Positions 2,537-22,819 of a DNA stretch of 40,522 bases are shown in pieces. A program made the translations under genes and the position numbers. The stretch spans positions 1-40,522 of the forward strand of contig JAEELW010000140.1 in the NCBI GenBank assembly GCA_016282915.1, given 5' to 3'. The notes under the pieces were generated by a model. It worked only from the letters and a program-made list of their open reading frames with translations. It did not search any database and was not told the origin of the DNA. The first letter of the stretch is position 1. Each line of letters opens with the position of its first letter. The DNA is from Lachnospiraceae bacterium (GTDB lineage Bacteria; Bacillota; Clostridia; Lachnospirales; Lachnospiraceae).

Positions 2537-2545
2537 ACGATGCCA

Positions 2546-2703
2546 GGGTCAAAAGCTCATATGACGGTCATGCTTGCATGAAACGGCATATGAGTTTGGG
2601 ACCCGTCCGAACATGAGCAAGTAGCGGAATGCTTGTGCAGCAAGCATTCCAGCGGATTGCGAATGTTCGCAGGATTGCTTTGTTGAAACGCAGCAAAGCG
2701 ATC
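2546..2703 (+). repeat. structured intergenic element (three consecutive hairpins)
   Basis: Three adjoining inverted-repeat structures fill most of the recR-galM gap. The first pairs 2546-2550 with 2600-2604 (GGGTC/GACCC) and 2556-2563 with 2587-2594 (CTCATATG/CATATGAG). The second pairs 2608-2614 with 2663-2669 (CGAACAT/ATGTTCG) and 2617-2620 with 2657-2660, separated by opposed GA/GA bases, and encloses a perfect 10-bp hairpin, 2626-2635 with 2641-2650. The third pairs 2673-2685 with 2691-2703 with two G-U pairs. No coding frame explains it and no run of T follows, so it is not a simple terminator. It looks like an interspersed repeat or structured RNA; I could not search for other copies. 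Confidence 0.6.
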
Positions 2704-2761
2704 CGTGGGCATCATAAGAGTCGAATATAAAATATCATAAAATAGATCAGGAGGAGATATC

Positions 2762-5011: not shown

Positions 5012-5063
5012 GCTGTCACGGTATCGATCTTAATTCTTACTTTTTTCTTTTCCCTTTATGTGA

Positions 5064-5069
5064 TATAAT
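5064..5069 (+). promoter_or_regulatory. -10 box just upstream of the guanylate-kinase-like gene
   Basis: A perfect TATAAT lies at 5064-5069 in an AT-rich stretch, with a weak T-rich -35 region (5037-5046). Transcription would begin near 5076, only about 3 bases before the ATG at 5079. There is no Shine-Dalgarno sequence in that interval, so the mRNA would be essentially leaderless. Confidence 0.6.
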
Positions 5070-5078
5070 ATTATAGTT

Positions 5079-5669
5079 ATGGGTGGGATTTTTTGTCTGA
5101 TGGGGAAAAGCGCCAGCGGAAAGGACAGCCTGTACCGGCGTCTGCTTGATGATGCGGGGGGAGAGCTGCATCCCGTTGTGCCCTGGACCACGCGCCCGAT
5201 CCGCGAAGGCGAACGGGAGGGCGTGGAATATCATTTTACCGATACGGAAGGGCTGAAGCGCCTGGAAGCGGAAGGCCGTGTCCTGGAGAAACGGGTATAC
5301 CATACTGTCCATGGGGACTGGTATTATTTTACCGTGGATGACGGCAGTATCAGGCCGCGGGAGCGGAAGTATCTGATGATATCGACCCCGGAAGCATTTA
5401 TAAAGCTGAAGGAACACTTCGGTGAGAGCTGTGTGCATCCTCTCTATATCGACGTGGAGGACGGGGAGCGTCTGGAGCGTGCGCTGAAACGGGAACGCAT
5501 GCAGGATGTGCCGAAGTATAAGGAGCTGTGCCGGCGGTTCCTGGCGGACTGCGAGGATTTTTCGGAAGAAAAGCTTGCGGAAGCGGGGATCGGGAAACAT
5601 TTTGATAACCGGGATTTAGAGCAGTGCTTCGATGAACTGAAGAAATACATCGGGGCAGCAGACGGGTAA
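5079..5669 (+). CDS. guanylate kinase-like protein
   Basis: A nucleoside-monophosphate kinase of 196 residues. The GMP-binding signature is clear ([19 protein letters not shown], about residues 35-53), with downstream kinase features. The phosphate loop is unusual: GKSASGKD at residues 9-16, with Asp where guanylate kinases have Ser or Thr. The start at 5079 is chosen because it includes the first beta strand (IFCLMG) leading into the P-loop; a start at 5100 would lose it. It precedes yaaR and holB, the place where many Firmicutes have thymidylate kinase. Guanylate kinase is the best guess, but a shifted substrate range is possible. Confidence 0.8.
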
Positions 5670-18567: not shown

Positions 18568-20376
<1,809 letters not shown>

Positions 20377-20434
20377 GTGGTAAAAGTGCACATAAAAAAG
20401 AAACATCGATTGTAAAATTTGTGATTTTAGCGAA

Positions 20435-20462
20435 TAGACGAAAAAGGGGAATATGATATAAT
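20435..20462 (+). promoter_or_regulatory. promoter of a candidate small RNA
   Basis: A perfect TATAAT at 20457-20462 with TAGACG (20435-20440) 16 bases upstream. A short inverted repeat, TAAAAT (20413-20418) with ATTTTA (20424-20429), sits just upstream of the -35 box and could be an operator or an AT-rich activating element. No protein-coding gene begins near the predicted start at about 20469. Confidence 0.6.
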
Positions 20463-20468
20463 CCATCA

Positions 20469-20558
20469 TGTAACCCCCAATACATTTTATAGTTTTTGCT
20501 ATAACCCCATTAAAGAAATACCTTCTCTGAAAATGACAGTGAAAGCTGTCATTTTTAC
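20469..20558 (+). ncRNA. candidate small RNA with C-rich motifs
   Basis: Between ftsH and gpmA (a 374-base gap without a protein gene) lies a self-contained transcription unit of about 90 bases. It begins with an unpaired UAACCCCC (20471-20478), followed by a hairpin UUAUAG/CUAUAA (about 20498-20515), a second C-rich stretch beginning with CCCC directly after that hairpin, and a perfect terminator. Single-stranded C-rich loops that pair with G-rich ribosome-binding sites are a known feature of Gram-positive regulatory RNAs of the RsaE/RoxS kind. Targets cannot be named from the window alone. Confidence 0.55.
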
Positions 20559-20560
20559 TT
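20530..20560 (+). terminator. terminator of the candidate small RNA
   Basis: A perfect 10-bp stem, AAAATGACAG (20530-20539) with CTGTCATTTT (20546-20555), a six-base loop TGAAAG and a T-rich tail. It is about 150 bases beyond the ftsH stop, so it could also end ftsH transcripts. Confidence 0.85.
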
Positions 20561-20571
20561 TTCTGTTTAAT

Positions 20572-20604
20572 CCCGAGCCACGCACTTCGCTGCGTGGCTG
20601 CGGG
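20572..20604 (+). other. long GC-rich stem-loop upstream of gpmA
   Basis: AGCCACGCA (20576-20584) pairs perfectly with TGCGTGGCT (20591-20599), and CCCG (20572-20575) can extend the stem to CGGG after a one-base bulge. No T-run follows, so this is not a typical terminator. It may be a repeat or a second RNA structure between the small RNA and the gpmA promoter. Confidence 0.6.
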
Positions 20605-20650
20605 CCGGTATTTTGGCTTGCACTTTTACTTTGTTTTTGAAGTGAATCTC

Positions 20651-20750: not shown

Positions 20751-21497
20751 ATGACAAAACTGGTACTGGTAAGACATGGTGAGAGCGAGTGGAACAAGCT
20801 GAATCTTTTTACGGGCTGGACGGATGTGGATCTTTCGGAGAAAGGTCACGAGGAGGCAAAGGCTGCAGGTAAGCTTCTGAAAGCGGAAGGCTACGATTTT
20901 GATATCTGCTACACCTCCTACCTCAAGCGTGCGATCCACACCCTGAACCATATCCTGGACGAGATGGACCGCAACTGGCTGCCCGTGGTAAAGGCCTGGG
21001 AGCTGAACGAGCGCCACTACGGCGATCTGCAGGGCAAGAACAAGAGTGAAGCCGCCGAGAAATTCGGTGAGGATCAGGTCAAGATCTGGAGACGCAGCTT
21101 TGATGTGAAGCCTCCCGTACTTTCCGACGACGACGAGCGTTCCACCAAGAAGCAGGAGATGTACCGCGATGTGGATCCCTTCTTCCTTCCCCAGAACGAG
21201 AGCCTGGAGACGACCATTGAGCGCGTGATCCCCTTCTACCTCAAGAACATCAAGGCCGACATGAAGGCCGGCAAGCGCGTGATCATCGCTGCCCACGGCA
21301 ACAGCCTTCGTGCTCTGGTGAAATATCTGGACAACAAGAGTGCGGATGAGATCCTCGGTGTGAACATCCCTACCGGAACTCCCCTTGTTTACGAGTTCGA
21401 TGACAAGTTCAACGTGATCAGGAGCTATTACCTCGGTGATCAGGAAGCACTGAAGGCGAAGATGGAAGCCGTCGCAAACCAGGGTAAGGCAAAATAA
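20751..21497 (+). CDS. gpmA: 2,3-bisphosphoglycerate-dependent phosphoglycerate mutase
   Basis: The glycolytic enzyme that interconverts 3-phosphoglycerate and 2-phosphoglycerate. The 248-residue sequence is a typical histidine phosphatase superfamily member: [12 protein letters not shown] with the phosphorylated His9, [12 protein letters not shown], the [12 protein letters not shown] segment with the catalytic Glu, the RRSFDVKPP stretch and a second catalytic His in [10 protein letters not shown]. Length is that of the cofactor-dependent family. AGGAGG lies 8 bases before the ATG. It is probably transcribed from its own promoter. Confidence 0.96.
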
Positions 21498-21532: not shown

Positions 21533-22819
21533 ATGGCAGATGATAAACTGCAGGAATACCAATGCCCAAATTGCGGAGGTCCTCTTGAGTTTCACGGCGA
21601 TGTGCAGAAGATGGTCTGTGTATACTGCGACGCGCAGTTTGAAATGTCGCAGTTTAACCAGAACAGCCCCAAGGTAGGGGACGAGCAGCCGACGCACTGG
21701 GAACAGGCCCAGGGCCAGCAGCTGGAAGCCGGCGCGGCCGGAATGAAGGAATTCCAGTGCAACGCCTGCGGCGCGGTCATGGTCAGCGACGGCCAGGTGG
21801 GGGCTACGGAATGCCCTTATTGCGGCAATCCCGCGATACTCGAATCCACCTTCGAAGGGATCAACCTTCCGGACGGCATCATCCCGTTCGTAAAGAGCAA
21901 GCAGGAAGCCCAGGACGCCATGAGCGGCTATTACAGCGGAAAGAAGCTGCTCCCGAACAACTTTATCAGCGACAACCGCGTGGAAAAGATCCAGGGTGTG
22001 TACGTGCCGTTCTGGCTCTTTGACTGCGACGTGAACGGAAGCGCGTTTTACCGTGCGGAAAACCGCCGTACCTACAGCAAGGGCGAGGAGCGCTGGGAAG
22101 AGATCAAGGAATACGCGGTAAGCCGTTCCGCTGTCATGCGTTATGAAAAGGTACCGGCCGACGGTTCCAAGGAGATGAAGGATGAATATATGGATTCGCT
22201 GGAGCCTTACGATTTCAGCAAGATCATCCCTTATCAGCCGGCCTATTTCTCCGGTTATCTTGCAAATAAATACGACGAGTCCGCCGATGATGTGAAGGAG
22301 CGCGTAAACCGCCGCATCAAGAACACTTCGGAACAGCAGATCCGCGATACCGTCAGAGGTTATGACAGTGTACGTACCGAGTCCAGCGACATCCGGATCA
22401 ACAGCGGAAAGATCCGCTACTGCATGCTGCCGGTGTGGATGCTCACGACCCGCTGGAACGGCGCGAATTATACCTTTGCCATGAACGGCCAGACCGGAAA
22501 GGTCACCGGTGATCTGCCCGTGGACAACGGAAAGGCAACAAGGATGTTCCTTCTGACCAGTGTGATCGCTCTTGCGATACTTGAAGCACTTGCATATTTC
22601 ATTTTCTGTCAGGATGAGATCAGTATCTTCGCCCTGATCGGCGCAGCCGTGATCGCATTGATCATCGGCGGTGTCACGGTTTCTTCAGCAAAAGCATCCA
22701 TGGTAAGCCACCTGAAGACGGAAGCGAAAGAATTCCTTGTCAAAGACAGTTTCCGGCTCACAGCCCAGAACGACCGTCATATCGATACAAGACACCGCAA
22801 GATCTCCGGAGGAAATTAA
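21533..22819 (+). CDS. TFIIB-type zinc-ribbon membrane protein
   Basis: A 428-residue protein of unknown role found widely in clostridia. Two zinc ribbons lie at the N-terminus: Cys11/14 with Cys29/32 and Cys76/79 with Cys94/97. A soluble middle region rich in Tyr, Asp and Arg follows, with a PFWLFDCDV segment. Two transmembrane helices lie near residues 338-387 and a basic tail closes the protein. The zinc ribbons are therefore probably cytosolic and tethered to the membrane. The start has AAAGGGGA about 8 bases upstream. The sugar epimerase gene begins 5 bases after its stop, and its ribosome site lies inside this gene's last codons. Confidence 0.82.
   Translation: MADDKLQEYQCPNCGGPLEFHGDVQKMVCVYCDAQFEMSQFNQNSPKVGDEQPTHWEQAQGQQLEAGAAGMKEFQCNACGAVMVSDGQVGATECPYCGNPAILESTFEGINLPDGIIPFVKSKQEAQDAMSGYYSGKKLLPNNFISDNRVEKIQGVYVPFWLFDCDVNGSAFYRAENRRTYSKGEERWEEIKEYAVSRSAVMRYEKVPADGSKEMKDEYMDSLEPYDFSKIIPYQPAYFSGYLANKYDESADDVKERVNRRIKNTSEQQIRDTVRGYDSVRTESSDIRINSGKIRYCMLPVWMLTTRWNGANYTFAMNGQTGKVTGDLPVDNGKATRMFLLTSVIALAILEALAYFIFCQDEISIFALIGAAVIALIIGGVTVSSAKASMVSHLKTEAKEFLVKDSFRLTAQNDRHIDTRHRKISGGN

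Follow-up and report, generated by a model that had tools for sequence, protein, structure and literature searches.

A putative C-rich small-RNA gene downstream of ftsH, with its own promoter and an operator-like pair, in Lachnospiraceae and related families

Positions 20469-20560 of the forward strand of a 40,522-nucleotide stretch of DNA from a Lachnospiraceae bacterium (the window, i.e., the whole stretch that was analyzed) look like an independent small-RNA gene, with an extended -10 promoter, two C-rich motifs and a terminator. Its product, of about 90 nt, is predicted to be a stand-alone, trans-acting small RNA, and most likely a multi-target repressor of translation that base-pairs through its C-rich motifs, a reading in which we have fair, though by no means full, confidence. 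Direct support in the sequence comes from the gene's own promoter, three conserved motifs, a covarying terminator, an operator-like pair upstream and the usual synteny with ftsH. The features are:

18568-20376 (+): ftsH, the usual upstream neighbor (Pfam Peptidase_M41 and AAA; synteny)
20387-20394 (+): putative upstream operator half-site TGCACATA (family consensus TGCACAAA), one half of a conserved inverted pair
20418-20425 (+): putative downstream operator half-site TTTGTGAT (family consensus TTTGTGCA), the other half of that pair
20435-20440 (+): -35 element TAGACG, 4/6 match, spacer 16 (promoter scan)
20454-20462 (+): extended -10 element TGATATAAT, with TG at 20454-20455 and TATAAT at 20457-20462 (promoter scan)
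20469-20560 (+): putative small-RNA gene, about 90 nt, its start inferred from the -10 element and its end from the terminator
20471-20478: C-rich stretch UAACCCCC, read in the sequence
20474-20478 (+): C-rich motif I, CCCCC, which a weak 5′ hairpin (UGUA/UACA) carries in its loop
20487-20504 (+): hairpin 2, UUAUAGU/GCUAUAA, 7 bp by folding (20487-20493 with 20498-20504)
20505-20508 (+): C-rich motif II, CCCC, directly 3′ of hairpin 2
20517-20527 (+): motif III, AATACCTTCTC, the best-kept element of the RNA, anti-Shine-Dalgarno-like
20528-20557 (+): intrinsic terminator hairpin (terminator scan), with a T-rich tail after it and strong covariation
20751-21497: histidine-phosphatase-family gene, phosphoglycerate mutase-like, the downstream neighbor in the window

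A sequence-only reading of this DNA had proposed a C-rich regulatory small RNA downstream of ftsH; conservation strongly supports that proposal, which had understated the matter. The perfect TATAAT that it named is in place and TG-extended, its two C-rich stretches are UAACCCCC and, after a 7-bp internal hairpin, the CCCC of motif II, and its terminator is confirmed as an intrinsic hairpin. It had also described about 90 bases without a coding frame, and in the window's ORF list no same-strand ORF of at least 40 amino acids overlaps the RNA, the overlapping ones being antisense. The arrangement is more than chance: the fold of 20469-20563 (-20.6 kcal/mol, z -5.3) was matched in 0 of 200 shuffles, and the transcript forms a sharp island of conservation. 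The promoter scan, which found 2 promoters where shuffles led us to expect 0.9, is no evidence when taken alone. Lack of an ORF, an own promoter, an intrinsic terminator and exposed C-runs are all features of the C-rich small RNAs of Gram-positive bacteria, the class to which the putative gene would belong. Farther 3′, at 20574-20622 (+), lie a GC-rich palindrome and a second terminator-like hairpin, which are not conserved within the genus.

In a nucleotide search of 98 relatives, 33 of the 35 genomes of the same genus, the window's own included, matched strongly, and G008 and G033 weakly. In an alignment of the same-genus loci with full flanks (32 of 34), which had been picked by RNA similarity and core motifs so that the high inner identity is partly selection, the mean identity to the window base is 0.95-0.99 over 20480-20539. 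This value falls to 0.79-0.82 at both transcript ends, to 0.57-0.68 across the promoter region and to 0.16-0.31 from 20560 onward; the last part of ftsH, with 0.18-0.69, does not reach it either. The C-rich motifs, whose loss among close relatives would have counted against the original proposal, are kept there.

The common order, from 5′ to 3′, is a GUA or GUGA start, a C-run, hairpin 2, a second C-run, AAUACCUUCUC and the terminator. The most conserved part, motif III (AAUACCUUCUC), had not figured in the sequence-only reading; we take it to resemble the 3′ end of 16S rRNA and thus to be anti-Shine-Dalgarno-like. Among 117 relatives picked solely on the middle of the RNA (5 more being cut off), 112 have it letter for letter; of the five that do not, three differ at the first base and two read UUUUC for UUCUC. 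The motif is also invariant in a 19-sequence cross-family alignment, the rows of which were found by a form of motif III. Other locus searches that used the motif are biased for it and dropped L057, which reads AACACCUUCUC, and one own-family covariance match, L095, is entirely without it.

The 5′ part varies in its structure between families. Most Lachnospiraceae, like the window, have a weak 5′ hairpin (UGUA/UACA) and a nearly constant sequence. In families f6, f11, f16 and f17 motif I is instead the loop of a 7-bp stem of the GUGAAAA/UUUUCAC type, which is missing from L314 (f17), and in f2 the 5′ stems are GUAAC or GUAACCU. The arms of hairpin 2 differ yet remain paired, as in UGCAGCAAA/UUUGCUGCA (L061), AGCAAAUA/UAUUUGCU (f2), GUAGC/GCUGC (f17) and ACAGUU/AACUGU (f11), the last with an additional C-run in the loop. 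By single-base shuffles, the z-scores of the 5′ part are -4.0 to -7.4 in f2, f6, f11, f16 and f17, where there are two strong 5′ hairpins with C-rich loops, and -2.1 to +1.0 in f4, f7, f14, f21, f22, f24 and five of the six f1 representatives (the five f1 sequences themselves, -2.1 to +0.8; the sixth, L094, -6.0). Two designs thus exist. In the terminator, 10 of the 12 pairs show changes on both sides in at least one sequence; helices 1 and 2 hardly vary, and their covariation count is therefore of little information. In one genome (G043; L059 1533-1622 (+)) a GGGG run behind the second CCCC (CCCCGAAAGGGG) allows the two to pair, and the seed would then be hidden.

A covariance model, R1, was built from a 38-sequence alignment. 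At E 0.01 it matches 139 of the 246 order genomes searched, among them, by hand count, 31 of the 33 from the window's own family, Lachnospiraceae. In a search of that family at E 0.001, whose strict filters lost weak matches, it found 183 of 250 genomes (151 of 202 of good quality), i.e., carriage in about three-quarters of those sampled. Among the matches listed in a pattern scan of GTDB contigs, most are Lachnospiraceae (e.g., Blautia, Enterocloster, Lachnotalea, Hungatella and Roseburia), and they include a MAG of Lachnoclostridium phytofermentans and one labeled Oscillospiraceae (L107, label as given). A second model, R2, made from 13 sequences (12 from f11 and one from f16), recovers the window gene by itself at E 6.4e-4; since a model from two other families finds this gene, we treat the divergent forms as one family. 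Phylum-wide, R1 matches 16 of 398 genomes, and its eleven matches outside the order (27-35 bits) look spurious, as by eye they have no TATAAT-GTAA-C-run layout. The layout is likewise missing from the sole class-wide R2 match outside the order (G733, 34 bits). An apparent absence of the RNA beyond the order is weakly supported, because the filters of both searches were strict and R2 missed several known carriers from the window's own family (G099, G111 and G184). As part of our best explanation, the RNA is probably an ancestral feature of Lachnospiraceae and of several allied families in the order.

The promoter is conserved along with the RNA. A -10 element matching at least 5/6 occurs in 217 of 219 distinct promoters, with the TG extension in 140. 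The TAAAAT/ATTTTA repeat that had been proposed as an operator is not a conserved element; the pair that is kept consists of TGCACA (20387) and TTTGTG (20418). In the window, TGCACATA at 20387 and TTTGTG at 20418 are spaced by 29 with one mismatch. In 80 of 181 non-redundant promoters CACAAA lies in the first 85 of the 140 upstream bases, against 5.5 expected from shuffles. Exact CACAAA stands 29 bp before exact TTTGTG 58 times (145 anchors), the next most frequent spacings being 20 (11 times) and 19, 53 and 59 (twice each). With one mismatch per half, CACAxA and TTTGTG are 29 bp apart, start to start, in 129 of the 181 promoters and never at 25, 31 or 33; the count at 27 (95 of 181) is read as slippage along an A-run. 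Among promoters chosen by RNA sequence only, a spacing of 29 was seen in 95 of 118, whereas seven further spacings, 27 not among them, occurred in 0-8. Relative to the RNA start, the pair occupies either of two places about 10-11 bp, i.e., one helical turn, apart.

The pair also appears to be found mostly at the small-RNA gene. The 13-mer TTTGTGCACACTT occurs once each in 10 of 25 genomes, always at the small-RNA promoter by coordinates. GCACAAA-N23-TTTGTG occurs in at least 98 of 299 genomes of the family, compared with 18 sites in 16 genomes for the reversed control (hand count); the genome of the window itself, which has a mismatch in the upstream half, is not one of the 98. Of at least 105 unique sites, 48 are at a small-RNA copy on a hand-made list, 19 are elsewhere in genomes on that list and 38 are in genomes not on it. 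By the covariance model, 39 of 50 places examined (L403-L452) adjoin the RNA, namely 23 of 30 and 16 of 20, the latter set having favored sites that resemble true operators; L446, one of the 39, was at first counted as elsewhere, and the other 11 have varied neighbors. From this pattern we infer that a dedicated DNA-binding regulator acts at the putative operator pair. TTTGTGAA was likened by us, as an assumption, to ResD sites, a likeness for which the literature search yielded no support. In one of these 11 places (G1219; L408, around 1500 (-)), the operator-type pair stands upstream of a gene that we take to be glpK-like, possibly a second regulon member or a chance occurrence.

The RNA lies directly after ftsH in most loci, and one could read it as a 3′ UTR product of that gene or as the leader of the gene that follows. 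The neighbors speak against this. Upstream, ORF clustering puts a gene other than ftsH in eight loci (L048, L050, L051, L058, L081, L086, L087 and L089). Downstream, an alpha-amylase-family (GH13-like) gene is the usual neighbor across loci; the gene in this place varies and is sometimes convergent (L004-L006, L009 and L010). Because both neighbors are replaced in some loci, we conclude that neither the 3′ UTR nor the leader reading holds; moreover, the RNA has its own conserved promoter and operator-like pair, and its terminator precedes the next gene. Its copies point the same way. R1 matches several times in some genomes (five in G1035 and G1139, four in G1050), some second matches being the terminator read on the opposite strand (e.g., L405). 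True tandem copies in L126, L397, L398 and L402 keep the promoter, the C-runs and motif III, and each has its own promoter; L397 (G1035) holds four full copies, each with a promoter, the complete set of motifs and operator half-sites or close variants of them. The 3′ UTR or leader reading is thus largely refuted, and we rate it very improbable. Still more improbable is a short coding gene for a micropeptide: frame 1 of the window RNA happens to be free of stops, but a same-strand ORF of 40 amino acids or more is lacking, relatives differ by frame-shifting indels and by the lengths of their C-runs, and 70 of the 84 frames of 28 representatives contain a stop.

A more serious alternative is that the C-runs and AAUACCUUCUC bind an RNA-binding protein, which the RNA would sequester or recruit, as a C-rich counterpart of CsrB. 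Up to the end of motif III, two or three C-runs are present in each of 28 representatives from 12 families, a constancy that would suit a protein ligand, as would the additional copies in some genomes; two or three are nonetheless few for titration, and the length of the first run is variable, from 4 to 9 C in the 38-sequence alignment. Motif III is more invariant than a short seed needs to be, and in f1 it is the sequence rather than the structure that is conserved. This excess of conservation, in motif III and in the nearly fixed, weakly folded 5′ half of f1, counts against pairing and would fit protein binding too. Pairing is also at odds with one of three divergent tandem copies that lie within 800 bp in genome G072 (L233 471-1240 (-)), which lacks the second C-run. 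On balance, we consider a protein-titrating or protein-guided RNA unlikely. A broader proposal is tentative, and we hold it to be possible rather than probable: the RNA would be a core riboregulator that Lachnospiraceae and their relatives inherited from an ancestor, Hfq-free and under its own dedicated bipartite operator, and its C-loops and nearly invariant 11-nt element would bind either one near-universal target or a C-rich-RNA-binding protein.

The preferred reading, that of a base-pairing repressor, implies the following mechanism. The RNA would be expressed from its own promoter, with a DNA-binding regulator acting at the TGCACAAA-N-TTTGTGCA pair, which closely precedes the -35 element. 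It would expose, in hairpin loops and single strands, C-runs complementary to G, together with the anti-Shine-Dalgarno-like 3′ motif, and so could pair with G- or purine-rich ribosome-binding sites of several mRNAs and block their translation, in at least some species without Hfq. This reading is the most likely because LhrC, IsrR and RoxS use C-runs, in loops or beside a stem, on Shine-Dalgarno or G-rich sequences (PMC4132741, PMC9410917, PMC8216469).

With regard to Hfq (PF17209), a search of mostly draft genomes, for which the E. coli and B. subtilis controls were positive, gave matches over the cut-off in four of nine carrier genomes and none in G000, G013, G055, G069 and G075, all of which carry the RNA. 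The window's own genome, one of these five, has only a sub-threshold match, of 22.5 bits. That is, among these nine genomes, mostly drafts, Hfq was not found wherever the RNA occurs, as would be expected of an Hfq-dependent small RNA, and it seems unlikely that Hfq is required throughout the carriers.

Four attempts to find targets yielded nothing conserved. In 45 genomes, sequences exactly complementary to motif III (GAGAAGGTATT) showed no enrichment relative to a reversed control; of 20 such sites from five genomes of the same genus, 19 lie inside open frames of at least 103 codons, and the remaining one (L278) comes just after a stop codon with only a 22-codon ORF behind it. These sites were rejected as targets, given the lack of enrichment and their position mostly within open frames. 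GAGGAGGTATT followed by ATG occurs at 25 sites in 17 of 30 genomes, at no recurrent gene and with no two encoded proteins of more than 40 amino acids alike. A ferredoxin start site was also rejected: GGAGGTAT is kept in 5 of 30 orthologues, the rest having only an ordinary Shine-Dalgarno sequence. The gene at 21533, earlier suggested as a target, did not stand out either, its duplex of -10.5 kcal/mol ranking 7th among 35 window start sites, which came from a home-made ORF caller and include doubtful antisense ORFs. The best predicted duplex in the window (-15.6) is at a guanylate-kinase-like gene at 5100. This gene may really begin at 5079, and the duplex extends into coding sequence. A TATAAT lies about 10 bp before this possible ATG (window 5060-5110 (+)), and the mRNA may be leaderless.

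Lachnospiraceae rank with the most abundant bacteria of the human gut. In the parts of the literature that our search covered, no core regulatory small RNA of the family is described. A widespread RNA with a near-fixed 11-nt element, a covariance model and an operator-like pair would thus offer a handle on RNA-based, possibly Hfq-free, regulation in these bacteria. The literature search, which included the letters of the motifs, found no description of the RNA; an unnamed earlier listing is possible in the tables of a survey of the human microbiome that reports 3161 candidate RNAs (PMC8040213). A start-site map of C. phytofermentans would probably miss the RNA, because its libraries had a 200-bp size threshold (PMC5171806).

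Rfam holds models of both RsaE and LhrC. A gathering-threshold scan of the window with Rfam 15 gave no match at the RNA and one hit elsewhere, and a scan of 15 loci gave tRNAs only. Up to E 10, the window region has four hits, none to a bacterial family; up to E 1, seven diverged loci have six sub-threshold hits, none to RsaE and none at gathering score, two of which overlap the RNA (rnk_pseudo on L061 and SraG, antisense, on L238). No match to the LhrC model appeared in any of these scans. We thus seem to have an RNA family without an Rfam match, of a kind, the C-rich base-pairing small RNA, that is already known. The hit elsewhere in the window is to Clostridiales-1 RNA (RF01699, 102 bits, 2538-2714 (+)), another uncharacterized RNA of the same bacterial group, at a different locus and with a different model.

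The likeness to RsaE/RoxS noted at the outset holds as an analogy and fails as homology. C-rich single-stranded seeds of that type are present (motifs I and II), a property common to many Gram-positive small RNAs, and RoxS/RsaE likewise has C-rich regions that pair with G-rich sequences, wide conservation and a regulated promoter (PMC8216469); however, the RNA described here has no meaningful score with any Rfam small-RNA model, and the analysis yielded no ResD or Rex site for it. LhrC of Listeria is similar in its size of about 110 nt, its two hairpins, its three CU-rich motifs in loops and a single-stranded stretch, its multiple copies and a promoter with a conserved regulator-responsive element (PMC4132741), whereas the present RNA lacks an Rfam match, occurs in genomes without a recognizable Hfq and carries the additional, nearly invariant AAUACCUUCUC. 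IsrR of staphylococci shares the three C-rich regions in loops or next to stems, conservation throughout a genus, a conserved operator and a variable terminator (PMC9410917). The operator of IsrR consists of Fur boxes and its distribution is that of one genus, whereas the RNA described here has the TGCACAAA/TTTGTGCA pair and spans many families.
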